This document shows, in pieces, positions 3,727-18,446 of a stretch of 64,000 bases of DNA. The first letter of the stretch is position 1; each line of letters opens with the position of its first letter. The notes under the pieces were generated by a model that saw only the letters and a program-made list of their open reading frames with translations, was not told the DNA's origin and searched no databases. The position numbers and the translations under genes were made by a program. This stretch comes from Demequina subtropica (GTDB lineage Bacteria > Actinomycetota > Actinomycetes > Actinomycetales > Demequinaceae), in NCBI RefSeq assembly GCF_000971235.1, contig NZ_BBMB01000008.1, positions 62,001 through 126,000 of the forward strand, in the 5' to 3' direction.

Positions 3727-3727
3727 C

Positions 3728-4438
3728 ATGGCCGTCCTGACCGAGGTGAGCGCGCGCGTGCTGCCGCCCGCGCGCCGGCTCAAGTGGCGCATCGGCGCCA
3801 CCGCGTGGGGGAGCGGGGCGATCGCGCGCCTGCGCCGCCACACCCGTGGGCTGACGATGCGCGACACCGCCCTGGTGGTCGAGGGCTTCCCGCGCTCGGG
3901 CAACTCCTTCTTCGTCCGCTACCTGCGGACCTGCGACCCCGAGGTCCGGCTGGGCCACCACCTGCACGTGGTCGGGCAGTACGCGCGCGCCGCGCGGTGG
4001 GACGTGCCGGCGGTGCTGGTGGTGCGCCGGCCGCTGGACGCGGTGCTGTCGCTCCTGGTCGCGGACCCGCGCATGGACGCGGACCTCGCGGTCGAGTGGT
4101 GGCGCTTCTACCACCAGCGGATGCTCCCGTACCTCGACCGGGTCATGGTGCTGCCGTTCGAGCAGTTCACGCAGGACCCGGAGGGCGCGGCGCACGCGAT
4201 CGAGGCGCGGTACGGGCTGGACCTCCATGCCGAGCCCTACGACGAGGAGCTCCAGGAGCGCATCCGCGCCCGCCTGCTCGAGACGCCGGGCTATCAGCGC
4301 AAGGGCATGGCCGGCCTGGTGCCGGTGCCCACGGAGGAGAAGAAGGCGCGCCGCCGCGAGCTCGAGGACCGTGCCGTCGCGGCGCTCGCCGGCAGCGGCT
4401 GCGACGAGCTCCACGCGCAGATCCTGGCGCCCCGCTGA
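3728..4438 (+). CDS. short sulfotransferase-like protein (5 of 5)
   Basis: At 236 residues this is the shortest of the five. VEGFPRSGNSF at residues 51-61 replaces the usual GTT with GNS but is still recognisable as a PAPS 5' loop, and RRPLDAVLS at 100-108 fits the 3' loop. A basic segment of about 45 residues precedes the catalytic core and could lie on the membrane. The start is one base after the previous stop. The last codons (LAPR-stop) lie inside the left arm of a 19-bp perfect inverted repeat. Confidence 0.7.
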   Translation: MAVLTEVSARVLPPARRLKWRIGATAWGSGAIARLRRHTRGLTMRDTALVVEGFPRSGNSFFVRYLRTCDPEVRLGHHLHVVGQYARAARWDVPAVLVVRRPLDAVLSLLVADPRMDADLAVEWWRFYHQRMLPYLDRVMVLPFEQFTQDPEGAAHAIEARYGLDLHAEPYDEELQERIRARLLETPGYQRKGMAGLVPVPTEEKKARRRELEDRAVAALAGSGCDELHAQILAPR

Positions 4439-4492
4439 CACATGGGCGCTCGCACAGGGCCGTGTGCGCACCTCCATGTGTCAGCGGGGCGC
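4427..4492. repeat. palindromic gene-end element, family 3, copy I
   Basis: A 19-bp perfect inverted repeat has its left arm at 4427-4445 (GCGCCCCGCTGACACATGG) and its right arm at 4474-4492. An inner stem is possible from CGCACA pairing with TGTGCG. The arms contain the ends of two convergent genes, both of which finish ...LAPR-stop. It may act as a bidirectional terminator although no T-tract follows. A second copy sharing the left arm and ATGGGCGCTCGCACA lies at 5500-5551. Confidence 0.75.
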
Positions 4493-5410
4493 GAGCCGGG
4501 CGCTGATGGTCAGCCGCACCATGCGGCGGCACCACGCTGGTCGCCCGCTCAGGTCCTGGAACGAGAACCTGACCGTGTGCCATCCAGCCGAGCCGAACTC
4601 GGTGTCGCGCTCGCGGTCACGCCTCCTGGCAGCGCGGCTGCCGTGATACGCCTCGCCGTCGCACTCGATCACGGTGCGCGATCTCCGGTGGAGGGCATCG
4701 GCGGTGCGGTCCCGTCCCTCGATGACCATCGCGACCTGCCACTCGAGCTCCGCGAACTCCGGCCCGACGAACACCTCGCGCCGCGCCATCACCTCGGTCG
4801 GCGAGGTCGCGCCCGACGTGAACGCGCCCATGATCCCGTCGAACATCCGGCGATCAGGCAGGCGCGAGCGCCGCCTCGCCGCATCGATCAGGCGCCGGGG
4901 TCCCGCGATCCTGAGCCACAGCGCGCGGTACAGCACATCCTTGCGGCGCCACCTCGGGGCGCACGCCCATGCGTCGAGCAGCGCCGCCTCCGCAGGGAGG
5001 CATCGCACGCCGCTCCGGGACGATGCAGAGCGAGGCAGCCCGGTGCGCGTGAGGTCCACCCATGCGGGAGCGCGTGCGTTCCAGGCAGGCGGACCGAGGC
5101 ATCGGACCCGCTTCGGAGCTGGATAGCGCGAGTCGAGAAGGTGAAGGGCCGACTCTCCCGCGATGAGCACGCGCCCCTTCGACCAGGCTCGCACCGCCTC
5201 GCACCGCACCGCGTGGGAATCGGCGCACGCCGCCGCAACATAGACGCCGGGAAGCAGCGCGATGATGCGTCCCCGCCGCGCAGCGTTCTCCAGTCCGCGT
5301 CGTCCGACGGCCGTGAGCACCGCGCTGCGAGTCATGGCTCCCGGCGCACGCCGCTCGAGCCGCGCGACCAGCTGGTCCACGCGACGGTCAAGCTCCAGCG
5401 ACCGAGGCAC
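4481..5410 (-). CDS. DUF559 / AbiEi-type domain protein
   Basis: The 309-residue product has an N-terminal winged-helix-like region (MTRSAVLTAVGRRGLENA followed by RRGRIIALLPGVYVAA), as in AbiEi-type antitoxin or regulator proteins. Its C-terminal DUF559 domain has IECDGEAYHG near 248-257, RRRDRERD and GWHTVRF, typical of the VSR/PD-(D/E)XK-like nuclease fold. Whether it cleaves DNA is unknown, and no toxin partner is adjacent. GTG 5410 has AGGCGAGG upstream on its strand; ATG 5335 is an alternative. Family 3 palindromes bracket the gene on both sides, and a second DUF559 gene at 34353 is bracketed in the same way by a different family. Confidence 0.65.
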   Translation of the reverse strand: MPRSLELDRRVDQLVARLERRAPGAMTRSAVLTAVGRRGLENAARRGRIIALLPGVYVAAACADSHAVRCEAVRAWSKGRVLIAGESALHLLDSRYPAPKRVRCLGPPAWNARAPAWVDLTRTGLPRSASSRSGVRCLPAEAALLDAWACAPRWRRKDVLYRALWLRIAGPRRLIDAARRRSRLPDRRMFDGIMGAFTSGATSPTEVMARREVFVGPEFAELEWQVAMVIEGRDRTADALHRRSRTVIECDGEAYHGSRAARRRDRERDTEFGSAGWHTVRFSFQDLSGRPAWCRRMVRLTISARLAPR

Positions 5411-5499
5411 GCGCGCATCGTGCCTCGCCTGCGAGGACGGGCGCCGCGGTGCGCCTGGGCCTGTGGAGGGGCGACGCGGTCCGCGCGGCCGTGCACCCC

Positions 5500-5551
5500 G
5501 CTGACACATGGGCGCTCGCACACCGCCCTGCGCGTACGTTCATGTGTCAGC
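5500..5551. repeat. palindromic gene-end element, family 3, copy J
   Basis: Inverted arms GCTGACACATG (5500-5510) and CATGTGTCAGC (5541-5551) surround a GC-rich centre that begins with the same GGCGCTCGCACA as copy I at 4427-4492. The two copies are in the same orientation on either side of the DUF559 gene. The right arm includes the stop codon of the flippase gene that ends at 5547. Confidence 0.7.
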
Positions 5552-7013
5552 CGGCCGCAGACGCGGACCGACGCAGCGAGCCCGCCACCTGCCGCACGAA
5601 GCGCATGAAGGTCCGCCGCAGGCGCCCGTTGAGGGCGAGCATCAGGCCCGCCACCGCGAGGCCCGCCGCGGTGCCCGCGAGGATCTGCGGCACGTTCCCG
5701 TCGACCCAGAGCCGCGGCAGCGCCGCCGCGATCGCGATGGGCGCCGCGAACAGCGCCGTCGCGTACGCCGTCCCGCCGAGCACCGACCTTGCGGACACGC
5801 CGACGGCCCGTCCTGCGAACACCGCGCCCACGGGCCAGAACACCAGCCACGCGACGGCGTTCATCACCGACACCCCGACCACGCCCCACGGCAGGCCCGC
5901 GAGCGACAGCGCGACCACCGCCGGCTGGCTCCACAGGCTGAAGCGCAGCCCCGCGGCCGTGGCCTCGCCCGCGATGAACAGCCACTGCTGGACCGTCGCC
6001 ACCAGCCTGAAGCCGGCCCCGATGGTCACCAGCTGGAACACCACGCCGGCGACCTGCCAGTCCGGTCCCAGCAGCACCACCACCAGCGGCTCGCCTATCG
6101 CCGCGGCGAGCCACATCGCCGAGACCATCGACATCACGATCGCCACCTGGAGGCTGTCGAAGGCCCGCATCATGCGCGCGCGGTCGTCGCGCACCCGCGC
6201 CAGCAGCGGGATCGCGACCTGCTGGAGGCCGTCGGTGAGCGAGTTGACGGGCGTGGCGGACAGCTGCGACGCGCGGTCGTACTGGCCCACCATCGCGGCC
6301 GGCTGGAACAGGCCCATCACCGGCACCAGGATGCTGCGCGTGAGGCTGCGCACCATGGTGAGCCCGAAGATGTGCGCGCCCACGCGGATCAGGCCCCCGG
6401 CCTCGCGCCACTCGCCCGGCAGCCCGGGCCACCAGCGCGCCGCGAACGCGAGCCACGGCAGCTGCAGCGCCTGCGGCACCACGGCGAGCACCACCAGCGC
6501 GTACGGGCTCCCGGTCGCCGCGGCGAAGGCGACCGCCGCGCCGACGCCGATCACGCGCGTGGCCGCCACGATCGCCTGCGAGGACGCCGCCTTGAGGTCC
6601 ACCATGAGCTGCCCGCGGAACTGCGCGGTGAGGCCGGCGAGCAGCGGCACCAGCGCGAGCCAGCGCGTGAGGGGGACGATGCGCGGCTCGTCGTAGAGCG
6701 CCGCGATCGCGTCCGCGCCCAGGAAGAACGCGAGCGCGAACACCACGCCCAGACCCGCGTTGACCGCGAACAGCGAGCTGCGTGCGCGATGCGACAGGCC
6801 CGGCGCCTGCGCCACCGCCATCGGCAGCCCGAGGCCGATGATCGCGACGGCGATGTCGGACAGGCTGACCACGATCGCGACCAGGCCGAAGTACTCGGGC
6901 GCGATCCACCGTGCGAGCAGGATCACCGAGACCAGGCGCGCGGCCATCGTGACCGCCTGCGTGACGATCGCGACGACGCCGCCGCGCGCGCCCACGCGGG
7001 CCAGGTCGGTCAT
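5547..7013 (-). CDS. Wzx-like oligosaccharide flippase
   Basis: This 488-residue protein is almost entirely hydrophobic, with about 12-14 predicted membrane segments. Its opening, a short charged N-terminus then VVAIVTQAVTMAARLVSVILLA and WIAPEYFGLVAIV, is typical of the polysaccharide synthesis (Wzx/MATE-like) flippases that move lipid-linked repeat units across the membrane. I chose ATG 7013, where homology-like sequence begins (MTDLARVGARGG); longer readings add a Pro/Arg-rich segment unlike the family. It is transcribed opposite to its neighbours and is one of two flippases in the locus, the other being at 18447. Confidence 0.8.
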   Translation of the reverse strand: MTDLARVGARGGVVAIVTQAVTMAARLVSVILLARWIAPEYFGLVAIVVSLSDIAVAIIGLGLPMAVAQAPGLSHRARSSLFAVNAGLGVVFALAFFLGADAIAALYDEPRIVPLTRWLALVPLLAGLTAQFRGQLMVDLKAASSQAIVAATRVIGVGAAVAFAAATGSPYALVVLAVVPQALQLPWLAFAARWWPGLPGEWREAGGLIRVGAHIFGLTMVRSLTRSILVPVMGLFQPAAMVGQYDRASQLSATPVNSLTDGLQQVAIPLLARVRDDRARMMRAFDSLQVAIVMSMVSAMWLAAAIGEPLVVVLLGPDWQVAGVVFQLVTIGAGFRLVATVQQWLFIAGEATAAGLRFSLWSQPAVVALSLAGLPWGVVGVSVMNAVAWLVFWPVGAVFAGRAVGVSARSVLGGTAYATALFAAPIAIAAALPRLWVDGNVPQILAGTAAGLAVAGLMLALNGRLRRTFMRFVRQVAGSLRRSASAAG

Positions 7014-7164
7014 CGGGCGGGACCCCGGCTGCCGGGGACGATGCGGGGCGGTGCGATGCGGTGCGCGAGCCGACCTGCCATCCTCACCCCCGGGTGCGAT
7101 CACATGTGCTCGCACTCTACCTGGCGGGCCGCTCGCGCCCCCGGGCGAGCGGGCGCGCGGGCGA

Positions 7165-7170
7165 TAGTGT
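7165..7170 (+). promoter_or_regulatory. -10 box, leaderless start of 7178 gene
   Basis: TAGTGT ends 7 nt before the GTG at 7178. The spacing fits transcription starting at the initiation codon. No Shine-Dalgarno sequence is present. Confidence 0.5.
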
Positions 7171-7177
7171 GGCGCGC

Positions 7178-8140
7178 GTGGAGCCCAGCGCGCTGACCGC
7201 GGCGGATGCGGTGGAGCTCGCCCACGCCCTCGTGGACGGCGTGGGGCGTGCGCGCGGCATCCGCGTGCTGTTCCTCAAGGGCCCCGGCGCCGCCCATCAC
7301 GGACTGCGGCCCGCGCGCGTGAGCGCCGACGCGGACGCGATGGTGGCGCCCGGCGATCTCGCGTCGATGCTCGAGGGCCTCGCCGCGGCCGGCTGGCACG
7401 AGCGCGAGCACTCCGACCTCGCCCACCTGTTCGCGACGCACTCCGTCACGCTCATCCATGACGCCTGGCCGTGCGACATCGACGTGCACGTGCGCTTCCC
7501 GGGATTCCTGCAGGATCCTGCGGACGTGTTCGAGGCGCTGTGGGAGCGCCGCGTCCCGATCGCCCTGGCCGGTGTCGAGGTCTCCATCCCCGACCGGACC
7601 GGCGCGATCCTCATCGCGGCGCTGCACAGCCTGCGCACGCCGGCCCAGACGTCGCGGCATGCCGCCGAGGTCCGGATGCTGCTGGACATGGTCCTGCCGT
7701 CGCTCGACGAGGCCGAGCGCGAGGACCTCGCGAGCCTGGCATCCCTGACCGGGTGCCAGGACACCGCGAGGCCGGTGCTCGAGCGGTTCGTCGTGCTCCC
7801 ACCGTCCACCCCCGCGCGCGTCGACCCCGAGCTCGACGCGTGGCGGGTGCGCACGGGCGCGCAAGGATCCTCCACGGTCCAGCACTGGCAGATCATCGTG
7901 AGCTCGCCGCTGCGGCGCCGTCCGCGCCTGATCTGGAACGCGTTCTGGCGATCCGCGGAGGACCTGCGCCGCGACCACCCGGAGATCCCGCCGGGCCGCG
8001 TCGCGCTCGTGCGGGCACGCCTCGCCCGGTGGGGTCGAGGGCTGCGCGCTGCCCCGGGGGTGCTGTCCTCGCTGGCCCGGGCGCGCCGGGGCGAGACGGA
8101 CCGGACCCTCACCCGCCCCGACGGGGGAGGCGGGACATGA
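7178..8140 (+). CDS. NTP_transf_5 family nucleotidyltransferase
   Basis: The 320-residue product resembles the uncharacterised nucleotidyltransferase family NTP_transf_5. FLKGPGAA near 32-39 and SADADAMV at 49-56 form the nucleotidyltransferase active-site pattern with paired acidic residues, followed by CDIDVHVRF. Family members occur in exopolysaccharide and some peptide-modification clusters, often beside PqqD-like and HPr-kinase-like proteins, as here. GTG 7178 is supported by the -10 box 7 nt upstream; GTG 7169 is also in frame. It overlaps the following PqqD-like gene by ATGA. The molecule it modifies is unknown. Confidence 0.7.
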   Translation: MEPSALTAADAVELAHALVDGVGRARGIRVLFLKGPGAAHHGLRPARVSADADAMVAPGDLASMLEGLAAAGWHEREHSDLAHLFATHSVTLIHDAWPCDIDVHVRFPGFLQDPADVFEALWERRVPIALAGVEVSIPDRTGAILIAALHSLRTPAQTSRHAAEVRMLLDMVLPSLDEAEREDLASLASLTGCQDTARPVLERFVVLPPSTPARVDPELDAWRVRTGAQGSSTVQHWQIIVSSPLRRRPRLIWNAFWRSAEDLRRDHPEIPPGRVALVRARLARWGRGLRAAPGVLSSLARARRGETDRTLTRPDGGGGT

Positions 8141-8433
8141 CCCCCGCATCGTCCCTGCGTCGGGTGCCCGGGATCGCCGAGGTCCTGCATGACGACCGCG
8201 CCGTGGTGCTCAACCTGCCGCGCGTCGAGCAGCAGCAGTCCCCGTACCTGTTCGAGGGCACGGCCTTCGAGATCTGGACGCGCATCGACGGCACCCGCAG
8301 CGTCGACGACGTGGCGGGGGAGCTCGTCGCGGCGCATGGCGGCGAGGCCGGCGAGATCGCGGAGGCGGTCGCATCGTTCGTGGCGCAGTTGACCGAGCTG
8401 GGCCTGGTGGAGAGGATCGCGCCCCTAAACTGA
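8137..8433 (+). CDS. PqqD-like small protein (RRE fold)
   Basis: This 98-residue protein has the PqqD-family pattern: an N-terminal strand pair ending in AVVLNLPR, a central GTAFEIWTRIDGTRSVDDVAGEL helix-turn-helix core, and a C-terminal helix ending in LTELGLVERI. PqqD proteins and the related RiPP recognition elements bind leader peptides for modifying enzymes. In polysaccharide loci their role is not established. It is translationally coupled to the nucleotidyltransferase by an ATGA overlap and lies 28 bp before the BY-kinase gene. A second PqqD-like gene follows the HPrK-like gene. Confidence 0.7.
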   Translation: MTPASSLRRVPGIAEVLHDDRAVVLNLPRVEQQQSPYLFEGTAFEIWTRIDGTRSVDDVAGELVAAHGGEAGEIAEAVASFVAQLTELGLVERIAPLN

Positions 8434-8461
8434 CGAGACGAGGGACAGGAAAGAGGGATCC

Positions 8462-10018
8462 ATGGAGCTCCAGGACTACCTGCGGGTGTTCCGCGCGCAT
8501 TGGATCGTGATCGTCGTGGTCACCATGCTCGGCGGGCTGCTCGCGTTCGGGTGGACCCTCACGCAGCCGAAGGTCTACACGGCCACCGGCTCCGCCATCA
8601 TCACGACGGGCGCGAGCCAGGACCTCGGCAGCGCGCTCGTGGGCGACAACTACGCGAAGTCCCGCGTGAAGAGCTACCTGGACATCGCGAAGTCCCGCAA
8701 GGTCGCGGAGCACGCCGCGGACGAGCTGGGCCTCTCGGCGAGCGCCGATGCGCTGGTCTCCCGCGTGTCCGTCACCAACCCCGTGGACACCGCGGTCCTG
8801 CGCGTCGCCGCGAACGGGCCGACGCCGGAGGCCGCGCGCGACCTCGCCGAGGCCTGGATCGCCGGCATGACCGCCGTGGTGTCGGACCTCGAGAACGAGG
8901 GCTCCGCGGACGGCGAGGTCACCTCGGTGGTGAGCCTCCAGACCCTCGACAGCGCGGTGCTGCCGTCCGCCCCGACCTCCCCGAACGTCAAGCTCGCGGT
9001 GGTGCTCGGCGTGCTCGTGGGCCTCGCGCTCGGCATCGGCTACGCGCTCGTGAAGGCCGCGCTCGACCGGCGCCTGCGCAAGACGGAGGACGTGGAGCGC
9101 GAGTTCGACGTGCCCGTGGTGGGCGCGCTGCCCTTCGACCCGTCCTTCGCGCGCTCGGCCATGAAGGTCGACTCGAGCGACTTCGCCATGAAGGAGGCTG
9201 TGCGTCAGCTGCGCACCAACCTCCAGTTCATGGACGTCGACAACCCGCCGCGCGTCATCGTGGTCACCTCCGCGCTGCCCGGCGACGGCAAGTCCACCGC
9301 GGCGATCACGCTCGCCGAGGCGATCGCCGACTCGGGCCACGACGTGGTGCTCGTCGACGCCGACCTGCGGCGGCCGGTCATCGCCAAGAAGCTGGGCCTG
9401 GTCGAGGGCGCGGGCCTCACCGACGTCCTCGTGGGCCGGGCCTCGACCCGCGACGTGCTGCAGGCCTACGGCGACACGGGCCACCTGTTCGTGCTCGCGT
9501 CGGGCGTGATCCCGCCCAACCCGTCCGAGCTGCTCGCGTCCGATGCGATGAAGACCCTGCTCTACGGCTTCCCCGAGCACGCGATGGTGATCATCGACAC
9601 CCCGCCGCTCATCCCGGTGACCGATGCCGCGGTGCTGACGGCGCGCACCGACGGCGCGCTCGTGGTCGCCCGGTCGGGCAAGACCACCATCGATGTGCTC
9701 GACCGTGCCTTCCAGAACCTGGACAAGGTCAAGGGGCGCGCGCTCGGCGTGATCCTCAACTCGGTGCCGCGTCGTGGCGCGCACAAGGACCGCTACGCCT
9801 ATGCGTACGAGTACCAGCACAAGCAGGGTCACGGCGAGGCGAAGGCGACCCCGGCGGAGTCCGTGGCGGCGCCGCGCGCGACCGCCGGGGGCGGGCCCAA
9901 GCACGCCTCGCCGGGCCGGCCGTCCGACCAGCGACGCGAGGGTCGCCCTGAGGGCATCCTCGACTGGGACCACGTGGTCAGCGGGGAGTCGGGGGCGCGC
10001 ACGCCCGGCGAGGCCTGA
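8462..10018 (+). CDS. Wzz/BY-kinase polysaccharide copolymerase
   Basis: The 518-residue protein fuses a Wzz-type chain-length domain (membrane segments about 13-33 and 178-198, extracytoplasmic region between) to a cytoplasmic bacterial tyrosine kinase. The kinase shows Walker A ALPGDGKST at 271-279, Walker A' VLVDADLRRP at 296-305 and Walker B VIIDTPP at 376-382. A tyrosine cluster (Y445, 447, 449, 451) would be autophosphorylated. Such proteins control polymer length and export with Wzx/Wzy. A 60-residue polar tail follows the tyrosines. The cognate phosphatase would normally be a LMW-PTP; the next gene has such a domain without the catalytic Cys. Confidence 0.88.
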   Translation: MELQDYLRVFRAHWIVIVVVTMLGGLLAFGWTLTQPKVYTATGSAIITTGASQDLGSALVGDNYAKSRVKSYLDIAKSRKVAEHAADELGLSASADALVSRVSVTNPVDTAVLRVAANGPTPEAARDLAEAWIAGMTAVVSDLENEGSADGEVTSVVSLQTLDSAVLPSAPTSPNVKLAVVLGVLVGLALGIGYALVKAALDRRLRKTEDVEREFDVPVVGALPFDPSFARSAMKVDSSDFAMKEAVRQLRTNLQFMDVDNPPRVIVVTSALPGDGKSTAAITLAEAIADSGHDVVLVDADLRRPVIAKKLGLVEGAGLTDVLVGRASTRDVLQAYGDTGHLFVLASGVIPPNPSELLASDAMKTLLYGFPEHAMVIIDTPPLIPVTDAAVLTARTDGALVVARSGKTTIDVLDRAFQNLDKVKGRALGVILNSVPRRGAHKDRYAYAYEYQHKQGHGEAKATPAESVAAPRATAGGGPKHASPGRPSDQRREGRPEGILDWDHVVSGESGARTPGEA

Positions 10019-10022
10019 CGCG

Positions 10023-11417
10023 ATGCGAGAGGTGCCGGCACGCCTGCGCGTGCTCATCGTCGACTCCGACAACGCGGGCCGCTCCGCGGCGGGGGAGCGC
10101 ATGCTCCGCCGTCACCTCGCGAGCCACGGCGTGAGCGCGGAGGAGATCCGCGTCACCAGCGCGGGGCTCGACGCCGCGGACGGCGAGCCGATGCTCGACC
10201 TCGCGCGCGCCGAGATCGAGAGGAAGGGCGCCAACCCGGCCGGCTTCCGCACGCGGTCGCTCAGCGCGGTGATCGTCGACGCCGCGGACCTCATCGTCAC
10301 GGGCACCAAGGCCGAATGGGAGGCGCTCGTGGGGCGTTACCCGTATGTGGCCCGCCGCGCCTTCACCCTCTCGGAGCTCGCCTACCTCTACGACGGCGCG
10401 GTGCGCGCCGCACCGCTCGCCGAGCACCCGGCGCTGCTCAGCCGCCGCCGCGACGCCGCCGCGGCCATCCCGCTCGACTTCGAGCTCCCGCCTCTCGACG
10501 CCCTCGAGGAGCATGTCCACGAGCTGGGCGACCGCATCGACGCCGCGTGCGCGTGGATGGCCGCCGTGTGGGCGGCGCTGCTGCCCGCATCGTCCCACCC
10601 GGAGCCGAGCGCCGACGCGATGCGGCTCGACGCCTTCGGCGTCCGCCTCGCGGTGGACTTCGCGGGCTCAGGGGTGGCGCCCGTGGCCGCCGCGGCGCGG
10701 CGCATGTGGAGCCGCTGCCTGGTGCCGGGGGTGGACGATGCGCCGGTGGAGTCCGCGATCGAGGTGACGGTGGACCCCGATGCCGAGGTGATCGCTCAGG
10801 CGCGCTCGCGCGGCGGGCTCGCGTACAGCGACCCCGCGCACGCGATCCACTTCCTCACGAGCGCCATCACGGTGCGCGCGATCGAGCAGCGCGTGGGCGG
10901 GATGGTGATGCTGCACGCCGCGGGGATCGCGGCGCCCACGGGCGAGGTGGTCGGGTTCATCGCGCCCTCCGGCACGGGCAAGACCACGCTCGCGCGCACG
11001 CTCGGCGCGCACTACGGCTACGTGACCGACGAGACCCTGGCGGTCGACCCCGACCGCGGCGTCCTCCCGTACCCGAAGCCGCTGTCGATCCTCGAGCGGA
11101 GGGTGGGCGGCCTCAAGGAGGAGTGGGGACCCGAGTCGCTCGACCTGGTGCCCGTGCCGGGCGCGCCGCTGCGGCTCGCCCGCCTGGTGCTGATCGAGCG
11201 CGACGTCTACGCCGACCGGCCCGTGCTCGAGGAGCTGCCGCTCCTCGAGGGCCTCGCCCACCTGGCCGAGCAGATCTCCTTCCTCGCGCGACTGCCCCGC
11301 AAGCTCCACACGCTCGCGGACCTGGTCGAGTCCGTGGGGGGAGTCTCTCGCCTGCGGTACCGCGAGGCCAGGGACGTGATCCCGCTCATGCCCCGACTGT
11401 TCGGGGAGGCCGCATGA
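10023..11417 (+). CDS. degenerate LMW phosphatase-HPrK-like kinase fusion
   Basis: Residues 7 to about 125 resemble a low-molecular-weight tyrosine phosphatase, but the C-x5-R loop reads D14-SDNAG-R20, so the nucleophilic Cys is replaced by Asp. Residues about 200-464 resemble HPr kinase-related proteins: LHAAGIA, the P-loop APSGTGKTT at 314-322, and TDETLAV at 336-342. Phosphatase activity is unlikely, while ATP binding is plausible. HPrK-related kinases occur beside PqqD and NTP_transf_5 genes in surface-polymer clusters and phosphorylate precursor peptides in some lasso-peptide clusters. The substrate here is unknown. It starts 4 bp after the BY-kinase gene and overlaps the next gene by ATGA. 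Confidence 0.7.
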   Translation: MREVPARLRVLIVDSDNAGRSAAGERMLRRHLASHGVSAEEIRVTSAGLDAADGEPMLDLARAEIERKGANPAGFRTRSLSAVIVDAADLIVTGTKAEWEALVGRYPYVARRAFTLSELAYLYDGAVRAAPLAEHPALLSRRRDAAAAIPLDFELPPLDALEEHVHELGDRIDAACAWMAAVWAALLPASSHPEPSADAMRLDAFGVRLAVDFAGSGVAPVAAAARRMWSRCLVPGVDDAPVESAIEVTVDPDAEVIAQARSRGGLAYSDPAHAIHFLTSAITVRAIEQRVGGMVMLHAAGIAAPTGEVVGFIAPSGTGKTTLARTLGAHYGYVTDETLAVDPDRGVLPYPKPLSILERRVGGLKEEWGPESLDLVPVPGAPLRLARLVLIERDVYADRPVLEELPLLEGLAHLAEQISFLARLPRKLHTLADLVESVGGVSRLRYREARDVIPLMPRLFGEAA

Positions 11418-11713
11418 GCCCGGCAGAGGTGCCCGAGGCGGCCGCGCTCGCGGACGATGCGCGCGTGAGGTCCGTGTGGGACGACGCGATCGAGCGGGAC
11501 GGCCAGATGCTCGTGCTCGCGGGCAACGAGGTGTCGCTGCTGTCCCCGGTGGCGACCGAGCTGGTGCTCGCGGCACGGGACGGGATCTCCGTCGCGGCGC
11601 TCGGGGCGCACCTGGCCGAGGTCTTCGGCGCGCCGCCGGGCCAGGACCCCGGGGCGGCGGTGCGGGACTTCCTCGCGGCCCTGCTGCAGCGAGGCGTCAT
11701 CGCGCTCGACTGA
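11414..11713 (+). CDS. second PqqD-like small protein
   Basis: The 99-residue product ends in a PqqD-like arrangement: a strand pair (MLVLAGNEVSLLSPVATEL), a helical GISVAALGAHLAEVFG segment, and a C-terminal helix ending FLAALLQRGVIALD. It is coupled by an ATGA overlap to the HPrK-like gene, which suggests that the two act together, for example with this protein presenting a substrate to the kinase. It differs strongly from the first PqqD-like protein at 8137. No enzymatic residues are visible. Confidence 0.65.
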   Translation: MSPAEVPEAAALADDARVRSVWDDAIERDGQMLVLAGNEVSLLSPVATELVLAARDGISVAALGAHLAEVFGAPPGQDPGAAVRDFLAALLQRGVIALD

Positions 11714-11768
11714 TACAGGACTTGCCCCGGTTCGCCCCGGTATGAAGGCGGATCCGGGCTCGTGTCGC

Positions 11769-11798
11769 TTTACGCGGATCCTCGAGCGGCCGTACCCT
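11769..11798 (+). promoter_or_regulatory. probable promoter of first Tat-protein gene
   Basis: TTTACG (11769-11774) and TACCCT (11793-11798) are separated by 18 bp. The pair resembles the TTTACG...TAGAGT promoter of ftsH at 35351-35381. It lies in the 131-bp gap before the gene at 11845. Confidence 0.45.
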
Positions 11799-11844
11799 GG
11801 TCCAGCGCTGGGGGAGGGCCCGGCGCATATGAGCTGAGGGGTTC

Positions 11845-12726
11845 ATGATGAGCATTGCTGAGAGCGGTGTGTCGCGCCGTCGCATCGTCCAGGGGGCCGC
11901 GTGGGCCACGCCCGCCGTCCTCATCGCGACGGCCTCGCCGCCGGCCGCGGCGTCGCAGACGCCCGGTGCGGTCTCGCTTGCGAGCTCGAGCTTCGTCGCG
12001 AGCGGCGTCAACAGCGTGCTCACGCTCGTGGTGACCAACTCCGGTGTCGCCGGCTCGGAGCCGCTCACCGGCACGCAGGTGACGGTGACCGTTCCCGCCT
12101 CGCAGGTGACTGCGACGCCCGTGTCCTCCTCGGGCTCCGGCTGGGTCCTCACCGGCCCCACCACCAGCGGCACGTCGGTGATCTACACCGCCACGTACGC
12201 GGCGTCGATCGCGACGTCGACCTCGTCCTCCGACTTCGTGCTCACCCTCGCGCCCGCGGGCGAGGACCCCTACCCGCTCAGCGCCGCGCTCGCGGCCTCC
12301 GCCACCTCGAACGGCTCGACGGTGACGGGGAACGGCACCGTGACCCGCGCCGGCACCGCGAACCCTGTGCCGACCGCCGCCACCTCGACCGTGGTGGCCG
12401 AACCGAGCTATGACAGGGCGCTCAAGCTCTCGCTGCCGACCGGCATCGTGCTGACGGGCGCCAAGATCGTCGCGACGTGGGACATCTCGAACAGCTCCTC
12501 CGCCAAGATGGGCATCACCGGGTGGACCGTCGCCGGGTCGAACAATGCTGCGGGCACCGTGCGAACCTCCTCGGCGACCCCGAACGCCGGTACGACCGTC
12601 TCGGGCGACATCATCCTCAATTTCAAGAAGCCGACGGTCGGCGGCGCATACACGCTGGTCGTCACCGGAACGGTCTCCGGCTCCGCCACCGCGAGCACGC
12701 GCACCATCACCGGCACGTTCGCCTGA
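11845..12726 (+). CDS. Tat-signal secreted protein 1
   Basis: The 293-residue product begins with a twin-arginine leader, VSRRRIVQGAAWATPA followed by a hydrophobic stretch and ASPPAAAS, so it should be exported folded by the Tat system. The mature part is Thr/Ser-rich with beta-strand repeats such as TLVVTNSGVAGSEPL, resembling Ig-like or DUF11-type extracellular domains. No LPXTG, lipobox or C-terminal membrane anchor is visible. ATG 11845 and ATG 11848 are both possible; GAGGGG upstream is the ribosome site. The leader is nearly identical in five other genes here. Function unknown; a structural surface protein is a reasonable guess. Confidence 0.75.
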   Translation: MMSIAESGVSRRRIVQGAAWATPAVLIATASPPAAASQTPGAVSLASSSFVASGVNSVLTLVVTNSGVAGSEPLTGTQVTVTVPASQVTATPVSSSGSGWVLTGPTTSGTSVIYTATYAASIATSTSSSDFVLTLAPAGEDPYPLSAALAASATSNGSTVTGNGTVTRAGTANPVPTAATSTVVAEPSYDRALKLSLPTGIVLTGAKIVATWDISNSSSAKMGITGWTVAGSNNAAGTVRTSSATPNAGTTVSGDIILNFKKPTVGGAYTLVVTGTVSGSATASTRTITGTFA

Positions 12727-12814
12727 CCTCCGCCGCGCAGGGGTCCCGCCCTCGCCGCTGACGGACGCCGCACCTATCCTGAAGGTGCGGAATGTCCGAA
12801 GGCGCAGGTGCGGC

Positions 12815-13288
12815 ATGGGTGCAGGGCGGAGCGACGGCGGGATCTCGCGCCGGGGCGCGCTGATCGGCGCCGCCTGGACGGCGCCCGCGATCCTGATCGC
12901 CGCATCGTCCCCGGCGGCGGCGTCGTCGCCGGAGAACCCGCTCGACGGGTCGTTCATCGAGAACCTTGAGTCCGGCAACGACGACCTCTACCGCGTGACC
13001 GTCCACCTGCCCGAGGGCGTGGTGCTCGAGAACGCAACGCTCACCATCCACTGGGAGCCCACCAACGCGCCCGACGCCTCTGTCGAGGTGAGCACGGGTG
13101 GCAGCGCGTGGAGTCCGGGCGCGACGGGCGACTCGGACGTGGTGTTCGTCGCGCCCGGCCCGATCTCGGACTCCGACCAGTTCCTGGTGGCCTTTAACAA
13201 GGGCCAGAACAGGTCGCCCTTTACCGCGACCCTGTCGGGGACGGTAGGTGACCAGGATGCGTCGGTGACCTTCACGGGAGAGCTCTGA
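12815..13288 (+). CDS. Tat-signal secreted protein 2
   Basis: This is a 157-residue protein with the leader ISRRGALIGAAWTAPA, then ILIAASSPAAAS. The mature 110 residues are predicted beta-rich (VTVHLPEGVVLENATLTIHW) and lack cysteines. The ATG at 12815 has no strong ribosome site. A TATCCT box at 12773-12778 could be its -10 element. It lies 88 bp after the first Tat gene, so the genes may be transcribed separately. GCA TCG TCC in the leader is part of the GGACGATGCG decamer family. Function unknown. Confidence 0.7.
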   Translation: MGAGRSDGGISRRGALIGAAWTAPAILIAASSPAAASSPENPLDGSFIENLESGNDDLYRVTVHLPEGVVLENATLTIHWEPTNAPDASVEVSTGGSAWSPGATGDSDVVFVAPGPISDSDQFLVAFNKGQNRSPFTATLSGTVGDQDASVTFTGEL

Positions 13289-13383
13289 GGCGCACGGTTG
13301 TTGCGCCAATCCGTGCAATCCCGACAATCTCTGCTTAGCCTGATGCGTACGCGACCGCTCCGCTCCTGACCGAGGAGGATGCC

Positions 13384-13929
13384 ATGGCCGAACCGAGAAG
13401 CGACGGGATCAATCGACGCAGGGTCCTTCAGGGCGCCGCCTGGGCGGCGCCCGCGATCGTGATCGCGACGTCCGCCCCGGCGTGGGCGAGCGCCTCTCCG
13501 CCCGATCCGCCGGACATCACCGTCGACGTCAACCCCGGCGGCAACAACGTGGCGGACATCGACGTGGGCATCTCTCTCCCGGCGACCATCCCGCCGGGCT
13601 ACACGATCGACTCTCCGTTCACGGTCACCATCTCGCTCCCGCGCGACGACGCCACGCTGACCGACGTGATCCTCACCCCGTCCGACTCGAGCTTCTGGGT
13701 CGTCGACCCGACGCCGCCGGCGAACGGCGTGGACGGGGTCTCGGTCACCTACGTCGGCCCGCCGATCTCGAGCGACAATCCGTTGTCCGTGTCCATCAAT
13801 GCGGTCTTCAACAACGGCATCGACTCGAACAGCACCGACCCGCTCGACCACACCGTGTCGTGGAACTTCTCCGGCAGTGTCAACGACAACCCGGTCTCCA
13901 TCGGCGGCTCCGTGACGCTCACCAACTGA
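13384..13929 (+). CDS. Tat-signal secreted protein 3
   Basis: The 181-residue product has the leader INRRRVLQGAAWAAPA followed by IVIATSAPAWASA, a Tat signal of the same type as its neighbours. The mature region is acidic and Asn/Asp-rich (VDVNPGGNNVADIDV, SINAVFNNGIDSNS) and predicted to be all-beta. GAGGAGG immediately upstream gives the strongest ribosome site of the six Tat genes. No anchor motif is seen. It may be a secreted or wall-associated structural protein, but the sequence names no function. Confidence 0.72.
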   Translation: MAEPRSDGINRRRVLQGAAWAAPAIVIATSAPAWASASPPDPPDITVDVNPGGNNVADIDVGISLPATIPPGYTIDSPFTVTISLPRDDATLTDVILTPSDSSFWVVDPTPPANGVDGVSVTYVGPPISSDNPLSVSINAVFNNGIDSNSTDPLDHTVSWNFSGSVNDNPVSIGGSVTLTN

Positions 13930-14058
13930 CCGGCGACCCCGCCCGCGGCAGGCGGCCGGTGTGCCGAATGCGAGGTTTGCCCTTGCCTGTCCCTGTGACC
14001 TTCGTCACACCGGTTCGCATCGTCCGACATTCCGGAAAAGGGGCGGGACCTTCGCCCG

Positions 14059-14064
14059 TAACGT
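14059..14064 (+). promoter_or_regulatory. -10 box, leaderless start of Tat gene 4
   Basis: TAACGT ends 6 nt before the GTG at 14071. No Shine-Dalgarno sequence is seen, which fits a leaderless mRNA. Confidence 0.5.
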
Positions 14065-14070
14065 CGCCGT

Positions 14071-14811
14071 GTGACGGACATCTCAAGGCGACGCGTGGTG
14101 GTCGGGGCTGCCTGGGCGACCCCGGCGATCCTGGTCGCGACCAGCTCGCCCCCGGCCGCCGCGTCGGGCGGCGCCTCCTGCTCTGAGGCGGACAACGGCT
14201 CCACCGCGCTCGTGAGCGCGCTCGGCTGGGAGGTCACCAGCGGCAGCGTCGACGCCCAGTACGGCACCAACGGATGGACGCCCGCCGTCGCCGGCGACAG
14301 CACGACCATCACGAACGACTGGTTCGACGTCGGCACGGCCAAGGGCTTCAAGTCGATGGACGACAACGCCTCCGCTGCGACGCCCGCCGTGGTGGTCGCC
14401 CGGTATGCGTTCACCGCGGTGCGGGGGGCCGTGTACAACGTGGCCTTCACCTCGAAGGTGGGCTACGGCAACGGCACCTCGACCTCCCGCCAGAGCATGG
14501 TGGTCTCGGTGGACGATGCGGCGGGATCGGTGGCGCTGGCCAAGGTGTCGGTCGCGCACAGCGCCGCGTTCGGCGGCTGGGGCGGGGTCCCGGCCGGCAA
14601 CTCCTCCGATGCCACGATGGCGGCGGACGGGTACACCATGCAGGCCCCGGGAAGCCAGGCGCGGACGGTGCAGGTCACCGGCAACGGCGGTCAGGCCGTG
14701 CTCACGTTCACGTTCACCATCGAGCCCGTCGCGACGGGCGAGACCAAGCCCGTGAGCGACGACATCTGGGTCTCGCTGCCCGTGGTGACGCAGGTGGCCT
14801 GCGCGGCCTGA
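14071..14811 (+). CDS. Tat-signal secreted protein 4
   Basis: This 246-residue protein starts almost directly with its Tat motif, ISRRRVVVGAAWATPA, then ILVATSSPPAAAS. The start is a GTG with a -10 box 6 nt upstream. The mature part contains one Cys near its N-terminus (ASCSEA) and one near its C-terminus (VACAA), which could form a disulfide joining the ends of the domain. Its signal peptide is almost the same as that of the next gene, pointing to duplication with divergence of the mature regions. Function unknown. Confidence 0.72.
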   Translation: MTDISRRRVVVGAAWATPAILVATSSPPAAASGGASCSEADNGSTALVSALGWEVTSGSVDAQYGTNGWTPAVAGDSTTITNDWFDVGTAKGFKSMDDNASAATPAVVVARYAFTAVRGAVYNVAFTSKVGYGNGTSTSRQSMVVSVDDAAGSVALAKVSVAHSAAFGGWGGVPAGNSSDATMAADGYTMQAPGSQARTVQVTGNGGQAVLTFTFTIEPVATGETKPVSDDIWVSLPVVTQVACAA

Positions 14812-14890
14812 CCATGTCCGCCGTCTGGGGCAATCCGGGCGTTCGGCGCGCACGAGGGCGAACGTCATGAACACCCTCGAACATGCCGCA

Positions 14891-14896
14891 TACTCT
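14891..14896 (+). promoter_or_regulatory. -10 box, leaderless start of Tat gene 5
   Basis: TACTCT ends 5 nt before the GTG at 14902. The arrangement matches that of Tat gene 4. Confidence 0.45.
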
Positions 14897-14901
14897 GTTA
14901 T

Positions 14902-15408
14902 GTGACGGAGATCTCTCGCAGGCGCGTGATCGCCGGGGCGGCCTGGGCCACCCCGGCGATTCTTGTCGCCACCAGCTCGCCGCCGGCAGCGGCCTCCGGC
15001 GGCAGCAGCGGCACCACCCCGCCGGTCACGGGCGCCGCGCTCACCGAGCACCACTTCGGCGGCGGATCCGGATGGGACGGGCCGCCCTCGGCGCTCACCC
15101 TCCAGCTCCAGTACGCGGTCAAGTACATGGAGGGCTGGCCCTCGACGCTCGTGGTGCCCACCACGTGGGTCATCACGCTGCGCGACGCCACCGGCGCGGT
15201 GGTGGGCTCGGCGACCGGCACGGCCGCCGTGAGCCAATCCGCGACCGCACAGGTCCGCACCACGCTGTCGGTGACGAAGACGGGCACGCACTCGGCTTCC
15301 TACCTGGTGACCGCCGGCTCGGCCACGGTCGACGGCGTCACCTACAAGCCCGACGACCTCATGAGCCAGCAACCGGTCACCATCGTGGTCGACAGGCTCG
15401 CCTGGTAG
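14902..15408 (+). CDS. Tat-signal secreted protein 5
   Basis: The 168-residue product has the leader ISRRRVIAGAAWATPA then ILVATSSPPAAAS, only two or three residues different from Tat protein 4. The mature region is a predicted beta-sandwich (PSTLVVPTTWVITLRD and TLSVTKTGTHSASYLVTAG) ending in VDRLAW without an anchor. The mature part shows no clear similarity to the other Tat proteins. This is the last member of the tandem group; the acetyltransferase on the opposite strand converges on it with only 16 bp between them. Confidence 0.72.
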   Translation: MTEISRRRVIAGAAWATPAILVATSSPPAAASGGSSGTTPPVTGAALTEHHFGGGSGWDGPPSALTLQLQYAVKYMEGWPSTLVVPTTWVITLRDATGAVVGSATGTAAVSQSATAQVRTTLSVTKTGTHSASYLVTAGSATVDGVTYKPDDLMSQQPVTIVVDRLAW

Positions 15409-15424
15409 TCAGCGCGGATCGGGT

Positions 15425-15994
15425 TCAGTCGCGGGCGTGAGCCGACTCTGGCAGCTCGCGGATGACTTTGGCGGGGACCCCGGCTACCACCGTGTTGGCC
15501 GCCACGTCCTTGGTCACCACCGACCCCGCGCCGATGATGGCGTTGGTGCCGATGCTCACCCCGGGCATGATGTACGCGCTACGTCCGATCCAGACGTTGT
15601 CGCCGATCCTCACCGGTGAGATCTTGATGCCCTCGCCCGCGACCAGCTCATGGTTGCCCGTGTCGAAGATGGCGGCGTAGGGGCCGATCTGCACCCGGTC
15701 GCCGATGGTGATCGCTTGGTGGCAGCCGATGGTCACCCCTGCGTTCGCGAAGAACCGGTGACCGATCTCGAGGTGAGCGCCCGGCATCACCACGAACGTC
15801 GAGCGCGCCTCGCGGTTGAGGAACCACGCGTCCTCGCCCAGGGTGATGGTTCCCTCGTTCTGGAAGACCGAGCGCATCGGCCCCATGGTCGGGCGGCCCG
15901 CGTAGGTGACGCCGGCGGCTCGGAGGATCACCTCGGCCCGCAGTCTCGATGCCTCGAACTGGATCTTCCTGCGCACCCGCAACGCCATCGACAC
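15425..15994 (-). CDS. hexapeptide-repeat acyltransferase
   Basis: The 189-residue protein is a left-handed beta-helix acyltransferase, probably an O-acetyltransferase acting on a sugar of the surface polymer with acetyl-CoA. Hexapeptide repeats run from about 75 to 175: [46 protein letters not shown]. They end in [13 protein letters not shown], the usual C-terminal signature. NHEL in the central loop could supply the catalytic His. GTG 15994 is favoured by GAGGGGGG upstream; ATG 15988 is an alternative. Confidence 0.82.
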
Positions 15995-16092
15995 GATGGC
16001 CCCCCCTCATCGCGATGCCGGTCCGGAAGATCCGGAATGCGGCGCCTGAGGTGCACCCTACGCGCAGGTGATCGCCCTGGGAAGGGGGCTGA

Positions 16093-17181
16093 TCAGGCCG
16101 CGCCCCAGGTACGTTGCGCGTACGCACGCTGGATGCCCGCCCAGTGGAGGGAGCGCTCGAGCACGTGCGCGCCCATCTGGTCGAGCTCCGCAGCGAGCTC
16201 GCGGGCACGCGCCGCCGCACCGTCGGGGGTGACGGTGTCGTCGAGGCCCAGCCGGCGCGCGTCGATCGAGTCGAGGTAGTCCCACGCCTTGTCGCGATAC
16301 GCGAAGAGCAGCACGGGCGCACCGGCGGCCGCCGCGAGGATCGAACCGTGCAGCCTGACTGCGATGCCGGTGGCGCATGTGCCCAACGCCGTCATGAGCG
16401 CGGGGACGTCCGCATGCGCGAGCACGGGCTCGTCGTATCCGAGCCGTGCGATCGCCTCCGCGGTGGGCTCGCTGTCCCACGGGGTGAAGGCGACCGGGAG
16501 CGGCCGCAGCCCCGCGGAGGCGAGCTCGCGCGCCGCCGCCACCGTCAGGGCGATGGATGTCTCGACCTCGTCGCGGCGGGCCTCGGGCGCCCCCGCGACG
16601 TTGACCAGGAAGCGGTCCCGCGCCGTCCCGTTCCCCGCACCGTACGTCGCGGCGAGGCCGAGTGCCGTGTCGCCGACCACCTCGACGCGGGGCACGCCGG
16701 CCTCCTCGAGCCGCCGCGCGGAGATGGGGCCGCGCACGCCGACGGCAGCGAAGCGCGAGAGGAGCGCGACCCACCGCGGGTCGAGCGTGAAGCCGGGGCC
16801 CTGGGAGAACCCGCTGCTGCCCACCCCGGTGCCGAAGGTCCAGGCGTGCTCCACCATGTCGCCCCAGGCCTCGACCTGATCGAGCCAGTAGCCGTTGATC
16901 AGCGTGCCGCCCCCCAGCAGCGCGCCGTCGAAGTACCGCCGCGCGCTCAGGCCCAGGCGGGCGAGCCTGCGCTCGCGCGACAGGTAGGGGACCCGGTCGA
17001 GGTAGACGCCGAGCTCCTCACCGAGCGCCCGCGTCGCGTCGTGGATCGCGAGATCGCCGAGGTTGTCCTCGATGCCGGGGCATACGAGCGCGACGCGTCG
17101 GGGCCAGGCCTGGCCGGCTGCGCGACGATGCCGCGCAAGTGCCGCATCGTCATTGAGGCCGGTGACGTATCGGGTGATCAT
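16093..17181 (-). CDS. polysaccharide pyruvyl transferase family protein
   Basis: The 362-residue product fits the polysaccharide pyruvyl transferase family, which adds ketal-linked pyruvate from PEP to sugars of exopolymers. CPGIEDNLGDLAIHDATRAL near 34-53 is the family's N-terminal GNxGD-like loop. LLGGGTLING near 88-97 and a C-terminal VLLFAYRDKAWDYLDSI segment complete the two Rossmann-like halves. It lies in the same orientation as the acetyltransferase, 98 bp upstream of it, and diverges from the GT4 gene. PEP specificity is assumed from the family. Confidence 0.75.
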   Translation of the reverse strand: MITRYVTGLNDDAALARHRRAAGQAWPRRVALVCPGIEDNLGDLAIHDATRALGEELGVYLDRVPYLSRERRLARLGLSARRYFDGALLGGGTLINGYWLDQVEAWGDMVEHAWTFGTGVGSSGFSQGPGFTLDPRWVALLSRFAAVGVRGPISARRLEEAGVPRVEVVGDTALGLAATYGAGNGTARDRFLVNVAGAPEARRDEVETSIALTVAAARELASAGLRPLPVAFTPWDSEPTAEAIARLGYDEPVLAHADVPALMTALGTCATGIAVRLHGSILAAAAGAPVLLFAYRDKAWDYLDSIDARRLGLDDTVTPDGAAARARELAAELDQMGAHVLERSLHWAGIQRAYAQRTWGAA

Positions 17182-17236
17182 CGGGCCGTGCTCCCATTCT
17201 TCGTGTGAACCACGAGGTAGATGAGGGGCGCGTGCC

Positions 17237-17242
17237 TAGGAT
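17237..17242 (+). promoter_or_regulatory. -10 box, leaderless start of GT4 gene
   Basis: TAGGAT ends 6 nt before ATG 17249. No Shine-Dalgarno sequence is present. Confidence 0.55.
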
Positions 17243-17248
17243 AGCCAC

Positions 17249-18331
17249 ATGAGGATCGTCCACGCCCTTGGCGACTTCAACGACGTCGGCGGAATCCAGA
17301 CCTACGTGCGGGAGCTCGCCGCGGCCCAGCGCGCGCTCGGCCATGAGGTCCGGGTGGTTGCCGGGGCCGGCCCCGCCGACCTCCACGCCTCCGACGTGGC
17401 GGCGTTCCACCCCGACATCGTGCATGCCCACGACGCGTGGTTCGAAGGCCGCGTCGGGGGCGCGCGCCACGTCCGCTCGTTCCACAACTTCGACTTCGGC
17501 TGCTCGTCGCGGGTGCGCTACCTGGGCGAGGGAGAGCCCTGCACGCGAGGCCACGGTCCCGGTTGCGTCCTCCAGTGGCCGCGCTGCGCCCACACGCTGC
17601 GGATCGACCACCTCGCGCGCCACTACCAGGAGGCCTCGCGCGAGACCTCGGCGATGAGCGAGCACGATGCGGTGGTCGTGTACTCGCGCTACGTCGCCGA
17701 CCTCGCGCTCGCGGTGGGCGTCGACGAGGCGCGGCTCCAGACCGTGCCGTGCCCTGCGCCCCGCGTGGAGATCGACCCGGGGTTCGAGACCGCGGAGCCG
17801 GGCATGGTGACGTTCATCGGGCGGCTCGCGCCGTCCAAGGGCGCGGACGTGCTCATCCGCGCGGTGGCGGAGGTGGGTGAGGCGCGTCTCCGCATCGTCG
17901 GCGCCGGCTTCGACGAGCAGCGGGTGCGCGAGCTCGCCGAGAAGGTGGCTCCCGGCCGCGTCGAGTTCCTGGGATGGCGCGCGGGCGACGCGCTGTGGGC
18001 GGAGTATGCGCGCGCCACCGTGGTCGTGATGCCGAACCGCTGGCCCGAGCCGTTCGGGCTTGTCGGGGTCGAGGCGGGCTGGGCCGGCCGCCCGGTGATC
18101 GCGAGTCACACCGGCGGGGTCAAGGACTGGCTGAAGGACGGCGAGACCGGGATCGGCGTGAAGGCGGGCAGCGTGGAGTCCCTCGCGGCCGCCGTGGACG
18201 CTCTGGTCTCGGATCCGGGCACAGCGCGCGTCATGGGCGCCGCGGGGCGCGCCCACATCGAGGCCTGGCCGGATGCGCAGGACCACGCGCGTGCGCTGCT
18301 CGCGAGCTACGAGGTGCCCGCGGGCTCCTAG
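17249..18331 (+). CDS. glycosyltransferase family 4
   Basis: This 360-residue retaining glycosyltransferase has the GT-B fold. GGIQTYVRELA near 14-24 belongs to the N-terminal acceptor domain, FIGRLAPSKGADVLI begins the donor domain, and EPFGLVGVEA near 267-276 is the E-x7-E donor-binding motif. A Cys-rich segment (C85, C98, C106, C113) in the N-terminal half is typical of a GT4 subgroup and may bind metal or form disulfides. It probably adds a sugar to the lipid-linked repeat unit. The leaderless ATG follows TAGGAT. Confidence 0.85.
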   Translation: MRIVHALGDFNDVGGIQTYVRELAAAQRALGHEVRVVAGAGPADLHASDVAAFHPDIVHAHDAWFEGRVGGARHVRSFHNFDFGCSSRVRYLGEGEPCTRGHGPGCVLQWPRCAHTLRIDHLARHYQEASRETSAMSEHDAVVVYSRYVADLALAVGVDEARLQTVPCPAPRVEIDPGFETAEPGMVTFIGRLAPSKGADVLIRAVAEVGEARLRIVGAGFDEQRVRELAEKVAPGRVEFLGWRAGDALWAEYARATVVVMPNRWPEPFGLVGVEAGWAGRPVIASHTGGVKDWLKDGETGIGVKAGSVESLAAAVDALVSDPGTARVMGAAGRAHIEAWPDAQDHARALLASYEVPAGS

Positions 18332-18369
18332 GCCTTCCCACAAACGCCGCATAAGGGCATGATCGCTAT

Positions 18370-18388
18370 GCGGGCCCCGTCGGCCCGC
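18370..18388 (+). terminator. GC-rich hairpin after GT4 gene
   Basis: GCGGGCC (18370-18376) pairs with GGCCCGC (18382-18388) around a 5-nt loop, 39 bp after the GT4 stop. There is no T-tract, so it may be a weak terminator or a leader structure of the next gene. Confidence 0.35.
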
Positions 18389-18446
18389 GCCAGGGGTGGG
18401 GGGCCGCCCCGCATGCAACCGCGGAGCTCATGAGGGGGAGGCGCGG

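Follow-up and report, generated by a model that had tools for sequence, protein, structure and literature searches.

A gene block of Demequina subtropica and its shared Tat leader, a candidate system for the modification of exported proteins

In the 64,000-nucleotide stretch of the Demequina subtropica genome analysed here (contig NZ_BBMB01000008.1, positions 62,001 to 126,000; hereafter the window), five adjacent genes encode a nucleotidyltransferase of the NTP_transf_5 family, two PqqD-like proteins (PqqD1 and PqqD2), a Wzz/bacterial tyrosine kinase (BY-kinase) and a putative HprK-like kinase fused to a dead low-molecular-weight (LMW) phosphatase domain. They are followed by genes for proteins that share one twin-arginine translocation (Tat) signal, referred to below as the leader. 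The association between block and leader across genomes is more than chance. We somewhat favour the view that the block is a protein modification system guided by a RiPP recognition element (RRE): the Tat signal would serve at the same time as the RRE leader, and the precursor would be modified before export by the kinase and then by the nucleotidyltransferase. Guidance by an RRE is known for the modification of small natural-product peptides; in this case the targets would apparently be entire exported proteins, tagged by their own export signal.

In the mechanism that we propose, a PqqD-like RRE (PqqD1, together with PqqD2, which would dock on the kinase or be fused to it) would bind the hydrophobic part of the signal at the stretch Trp-x-x-Pro-x-[Ile/Val], holding the Tat signal as a beta strand and bringing the kinase to a serine at the end of the leader. 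The HprK-like kinase would phosphorylate a serine, most likely the one located 17 residues after the Trp, which lies at the signal-peptidase site and hence would come to stand at or beside the mature N-terminus. The NTP_transf_5 enzyme, a candidate transferase onto the phosphorylated precursor, would extend the phosphate with a sugar or a nucleotidyl group. Once freed from the RRE, the signal would be exposed, Tat would export the protein and signal peptidase would remove the leader. That modification comes before export is suggested by the consideration that RRE binding would cover the stretch that Tat must read.

The co-occurrence of leader and kinase was followed in three partly overlapping genome samples. 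As the Pfam profile Hpr_kinase_C matched nothing in the D. subtropica genome, the kinase included, we built our own kinase profiles for these surveys, the initial one based on the genus and a later one broader. In the Demequina family (47 genomes), full-length homologues of the kinase fusion were found in 21 genomes, all belonging to Demequina, and a profile made from 32 leaders of the genus (E-value 0.01) matched 23 genomes, namely these 21 plus genomes G041 and G018. The leader was present in all 22 genomes having a kinase vs. 1 of the 25 without it (Fisher test, 1.6e-12, a value whose independence is overstated by kinship). A kinase-profile match located beside the G018 leader was rejected, reading as the ATPase of an ABC transporter, and the broader search found no kinase in this genome, which therefore remains an exception.

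The order survey included 297 genomes, 24 from the Demequina family and 273 from other families, with thresholds of 1e-15 for the kinase and 1e-6 for a broad leader profile. Among the 273 genomes outside the family, 47 had the kinase (one of them, G068, weakly), 43 the leader, 40 both and 223 neither. With the leader profile of the genus alone, which contained no sequence of another family (E-value 1e-5), 36 leader genomes were recovered, of which 34 also had the kinase. Genome G073, which appeared to be leader-only with the genus kinase profile, was rejected as such once its kinase was found with the broader one. The third sample consisted of 186 genomes (53 genera) from one family, searched at the thresholds of the order survey; 17 of its kinase genomes are shared with the order sample, and the profiles include rows from some of them. 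The kinase was found in 110 of these genomes, the leader in 95, both in 94 and neither in 75, and the sole genome with leader and without kinase (G349) is 83% complete.

Up to 12 leader genes were found in one genome (G360), and many are distant from the kinase in other families. Linkage is thus insufficient to explain the co-occurrence, and mere physical linkage of leader and block was set aside as an explanation on this ground. Overall, leaders were more similar within genomes (0.625) than between genomes of one family (0.525), a difference reached in 0 of 2000 shuffles. The initial annotation had named the independent occurrence of leader proteins and enzyme block, beforehand, as the outcome that would speak decisively against its idea; in the family, the order and the 186-genome family alike, the two were found to go together, and the idea was not refuted.

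The leader can be described as 29 positions, with the twin Arg at positions 3-4, Trp at 12, Pro at 15, Ile or Val at 17, Pro at 24 and Ser at 29. In the genus, position 17 was Ile or Val in 62 of 64 leaders and position 29 was Ser in 56 of the 64, which were collected with a pattern ignoring that position. In a wider set of 82 distinct leaders (81 from outside the family and one from the genus), Trp12 was kept in 76, Pro15 in 81, Ser29 in 75 and Ile or Val at position 17 in 67; these 82 were found with a profile that includes those positions, and one row is misaligned. With their twin Arg, hydrophobic stretch and A-x-A site, the leader proteins are Tat substrates by sequence criteria and their export is predicted; TatC is encoded in the genome. 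The stretch W12-x-x-P15-x-[IV]17 agrees with the RRE consensus [Y/W]xxPx[L/V/I/A/F/Y] as published (PMC13381572).

The leaders are alike and the mature parts are diverse. Over the Pfam cut-offs, no match was obtained for Tat proteins 1-5 of the window. Ten other mature parts were scanned (nine from outside the genus and one, L187, from within it); seven matched nothing and three, which all belong to genome G202, matched Pfam families over the cut-offs (NHL, RCC1 and Big_1-type beta structures). We also considered a C-terminal Ser as the kinase target, but it did not emerge from the C-terminal tails examined, which have no common last residue.

The best solved relatives of PqqD1 in a profile search of the PDB were PqqD, the lasso RREs PbaB1 and TbiB1, and LppB (E-values from 6e-6 to 3e-4). 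An AlphaFold2 model of PqqD1 (pLDDT 92.9) had as best fold matches 5v1v, 5v1u and 6jx3, i.e., TbiB1 and TfuB1, lasso RREs solved with bound leaders; the match to 5v1v reached Foldseek TM-scores of 0.78/0.86 and, by fold alignment, a Z-score of 13.0 with a root-mean-square deviation (rmsd) of 2.4 over 88 aligned residues. As modelled, PqqD1 has the winged-helix RRE fold and it is a predicted leader-binding protein. Residues 6-34 of PqqD1 are weakly similar to SepF (Pfam E-value 0.0075; PDB E-value 0.03), a likeness that is probably due to chance. The equivalents of PqqD2 in other families appear often to be fused to the C-terminus of the kinase: in 19 of the 49 kinase loci of other families, a single open frame contains both a PqqD and a kinase match, locus L091 has two PqqD stretches after the kinase, and L088 reads alike by eye. 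The initial annotation suggested that the shared leader belongs to the block and may be the target of recognition by the PqqD proteins. This suggestion is well supported, by the genome samples and further by the RRE fold model of PqqD1, these fusions and the leader motif, the binding itself being what we infer from them.

Across 35 kinase sequences, the residues H, GxGKxT, DE, KP, K and R do not vary, and the motifs APSGTGKTT and YVTDE are kept among the genus homologues. The fused LMW-phosphatase domain matches the fold of LMW protein tyrosine phosphatase (Z-score 21.5, rmsd 1.7, 147 aligned residues); this alignment covers the phosphatase domain alone and is uninformative on the kinase fold. 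The position of the expected catalytic Cys was placed by the LMW-phosphatase motif, and this Cys is replaced by D, G or S in all 21 genus homologues having the domain. With the fold kept and the Cys gone, the domain was correctly labelled a pseudo-phosphatase from the outset. The motifs K34-G35, D51-x-D53 and D102-x-H104 of the nucleotidyltransferase, which are presumably catalytic, are kept in 38-40 of 42 homologues.

The kinase fusion occurs together with the block in 20 other Demequina genomes. PqqD2 follows the kinase in 21 of 21 genus loci and the BY-kinase directly precedes it in 20, the exception being genome G023 (loci L059 and L045). In the regions fetched around the kinase (21 regions of 16-22 kb), a nucleotidyltransferase gene was present before or after it in 20 and PqqD1 in 20, the remaining one lying at the region edge; PqqD1 is placed among or after the Tat genes in some loci. 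Leader genes were found in all 21 regions, each of which has 1-6 of the 64 genes that a strict pattern recovers. The main locus of G023 has nucleotidyltransferase remnants between BY-kinase and kinase, and its BY-kinase and nucleotidyltransferase genes are split by frame changes. About 650 kb from the kinase, the same genome has two PqqD1 copies and a further leader cluster containing truncated genes. In genome G041, the kinase is present twice, lacking the phosphatase part in both cases (L055 and L056), and each copy is followed by an in-frame PqqD2 domain; this genome has one weak leader gene.

Outside the family, we compared 49 kinase loci in 45 genomes over about 10 kb around the kinase. 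A leader gene was located within this distance in 16 of them (17 with the broad profile), a PqqD2 match in 27, a PqqD1 match in 12, an NTP_transf_5 gene in 21 and a BY-kinase in only 18. By its sequence, the Wzz/BY-kinase of the window is of the type that regulates exopolysaccharide chain length and export, and the polysaccharide neighbourhood of the block, together with the BY-kinase, hints at a surface role, a hint that is weaker outside the genus. A direct link to glycan export, as proposed at the start, is not supported: the BY-kinase directly precedes the kinase in nearly all genus loci but is near it in only this minority of the outside loci.

Several observations weigh against the RRE-guided modification system. 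The HprK-like label of the kinase stands on weak grounds as far as sequence and fold comparisons go. Besides the failure of Hpr_kinase_C, the HprK part of the fusion is only a weak and partial match to TIGR04352 (22.5 bits vs. a cut-off of 200); Foldseek matched the kinase to phosphoenolpyruvate carboxykinase (1os1) with an E-value of 4.8e-6 but a TM-score of only 0.36; and there was no HprK chain among the 50 fold matches listed. When the PDB was searched with a kinase profile, the best 60 of 509 matches were to ABC ATPases and other P-loop proteins. The fourth-ranked fold match of the PqqD1 model is a methyltransferase domain (8hkr, Z-score 11.4). As for the leader, Ser29 is not invariant, and part of its conservation could serve signal peptidase because it is located at the cleavage site; the background, Ser at the same place in 16 of 248 signal-like segments, comes from a crude control in which membrane segments are included. 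TatC, too, should read the h-region, where the W-x-x-P stretch is located. In genome G202 (loci L117, L145 and L162), Leu or Ile replaces the Trp in all five leaders; with a change throughout the genome, the RRE pocket would be expected to be altered there.

The co-occurrence also has its exceptions and limits. The leader was found without the kinase in G018, G056, G117, G252 and G349, and the kinase without a leader at threshold in 16 of 110 genomes of the 186-genome family and 7 of 47 of the order. Candidates scored per genome numbered 10 in the order, 17 in the 186-genome family and 27 to 44 for the leader, so that misses are possible both ways. The genomes are related, hence the Fisher values overstate their independence. 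In family f17, leader similarity was lower within genomes (0.426, 4 pairs) than between them (0.493). The leader genes without detectable kinase in G117, G252 and G056 (L139, L140 and L176) belong to one genus, in which another partner may serve the leaders.

Other readings of the same data have to be considered. The PqqD proteins could be Tat proofreading chaperones that hold back export until folding, with the kinase and nucleotidyltransferase acting elsewhere, for example on the export machinery or on polysaccharide. TorD and DmsD, which are redox-enzyme maturation proteins, are Tat proofreading chaperones, and such a role would suit the RRE fold, the co-occurring Tat leader and substrates that are whole domains rather than small peptides. 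However, it is the kinase profile that tracks the leader, the kinase shares its frame with PqqD in the loci with fusions, and the motifs of both kinase and nucleotidyltransferase are kept although a chaperone requires neither enzyme; we consider this explanation quite unlikely. We rank lowest, and regard as improbable, the idea that the block is only an exopolysaccharide regulator, its HprK-like kinase acting on the BY-kinase or on the polymer, and that the Tat proteins are co-inherited matrix proteins whose leader arose by gene duplication. The position of the BY-kinase in the genus agrees with it, as do the genes of the surrounding polysaccharide locus (sulfotransferase-like genes, two flippases, two glycosyltransferases, a pyruvyltransferase and an acyltransferase), but outside the genus the presence of the leader still tracks the kinase while many leader genes are distant, the BY-kinase is mostly not close to the kinase, and leaders are alike while mature parts diverge.

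A third possibility is closer to the modification system that we favour and, in our opinion, unlikely without being far-fetched: the leader proteins would be modified, but not at the conserved Ser, or they would receive a different group instead of phosphate and sugar. The kinase of paeninodin targets a C-terminal Ser (PMC8498205), and the variability of Ser29 would be in line with another site, but the C-terminal stretches examined share no last residue, as mentioned above.

The genes of the block and of the leader proteins are listed in Table 1. All five enzyme genes of the initial annotation were recovered where it had placed them, with domain assignments checked by Pfam and NCBIfam; overlaps or gaps between neighbours amount to 4-28 bases. 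The five Tat proteins with one RR-x4-GAAW leader are indeed encoded directly after the block, and a sixth one had been overlooked.

Table 1. Enzyme block and leader protein genes in window coordinates (the block spans 7178-11713)
Gene product	Position	Strand	Length (aa)	Remarks
NTP_transf_5 nucleotidyltransferase	7178-8140	+	320	GTG start; Pfam NTP_transf_5 37.1 bits (cut-off 31.2)
PqqD1, stand-alone PqqD-like protein	8137-8433	+	98	Pfam PqqD 38.7 bits (cut-off 23.4)
Wzz/BY-kinase	8462-10018	+	518	Wzz, GNVR and ParA-type domains; TIGR01007 141.5 bits (cut-off 108.05)
Dead LMW-phosphatase domain fused to putative HprK-like kinase	10023-11417	+	464	LMWPc 27.6 bits (cut-off 23.2)
PqqD2, second PqqD-like protein	11414-11713	+	99	Pfam PqqD 20.3 bits, under cut-off (23.4)
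Tat leader protein 1	11845-12726	+	293	Leader VSRRRIVQGAAWATPAVLIATASPPAAAS
Tat leader protein 2	12815-13288	+	157	Upstream start possible; RR-x4-GAAW leader
Tat leader protein 3	13384-13929	+	181	RR-x4-GAAW leader
Tat leader protein 4	14071-14811	+	246	RR-x4-GAAW leader
Tat leader protein 5	14902-15408	+	168	RR-x4-GAAW leader
Tat leader protein 6	23715-24221	+	168	Leader-profile match, E-value 1.1e-9 (G000:C16:85745)

Upstream of the block, two adjoining sulfotransferase-like genes are located at 2812-4438, the second one under the Pfam cut-off; a putative sulfotransferase is also found in some lasso clusters of Firmicutes (PMC8498205). A gene on the minus strand within the polysaccharide locus (4481-5521) encodes a nuclease-like protein of the MTES_1575/DUF559 type, with scores just under the Pfam cut-offs. 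Rfam and tRNA scans of the window gave no matches.

If the RRE-guided system operates as proposed, many actinobacterial Tat proteins that lack annotation would gain a function, the near-fixed Trp, Pro and Ser of their Tat signals would be explained, and there would be a directly testable candidate for a link between protein and glycan; the substrates could be predicted genome by genome from the 29-residue profile. It is possible, though doubtful, that the system amounts to a general secretory route of these Actinomycetota in which the Tat signal is an RRE address tag and many exported proteins, folded and unrelated to one another, receive a phosphate-linked sugar at the N-terminus from a single kinase/nucleotidyltransferase set, the group possibly fastening them to exopolysaccharide or the cell surface in place of a sorting signal.

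Among described systems, the linear polyphosphorylated peptides (LPP) of Bacillota, reported in May 2026 in Nature Communications (PMC13381572), share several traits with the block. Both combine a discrete RRE, an HprK-like kinase (a weak label in our case) and an NTP transferase in polysaccharide loci, and both have precursors with a conserved N-terminus, a variable C-terminus and a [Y/W]xxP leader motif. In LPP, the HprK-like kinase phosphorylates Ser 3 of the core, 18 residues after the motif Tyr by the numbering of that paper, and the conserved Ser follows the aromatic residue by 17 residues in our leaders. In contrast to the LPP consensus YxxPxVLxHQxIxFETxxS, the leader is here a Tat signal with WxxPx[IV]; the substrates reach several hundred residues, with the leader genes of one genome numbering up to a dozen; there are two PqqD proteins, the kinase is often fused to PqqD, and the hosts are Actinomycetota. 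Neither the SpI-type peptidase nor the MsbA-type transporter of LPP clusters was found among the 19 window genes scanned (2812-20793).

The lasso peptides paeninodin and pseudomycoidin resemble our system in having an RRE, an HprK kinase and a nucleotidyltransferase that act on the same substrate (PMC8498205, PMC5067487); pseudomycoidin is phosphoglycosylated by HprK plus a nucleotidyltransferase (PMC8498205), and WxxP is present in most lasso leaders of Bacillota (PMC13381572). They differ in that our substrates are not small peptides and have no conserved C-terminal Ser in the tails examined, and the same 19 window genes included no macrolactam cyclase or B2 peptidase. The HPr-rel-A system, with the HprK-related kinase A (TIGR04352) and the PqqD-related chaperone (TIGR04353), shows the same pairing of HprK-like and PqqD-like proteins, judging by the family names, but scores here are far under the cut-offs, for TIGR04352 as given above (22.5 vs. 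200) and for TIGR04353 at 17.5 and 13.9 vs. 35. The claim that the block is not one of the described classes therefore holds in part: the system is set apart from LPP and lasso peptides because two LPP features and the lasso features are missing in the window, yet LPP uses the same three enzyme types. In a literature search, largely without subscription papers and bioRxiv preprints, we found no description of an RRE that reads a Tat leader. The enzyme types and the leader motif are known from LPP and paeninodin-type lasso peptides of Bacillota, and the difference is that the candidate substrates are whole proteins with a Tat-signal leader, in Actinomycetota, and many per genome.

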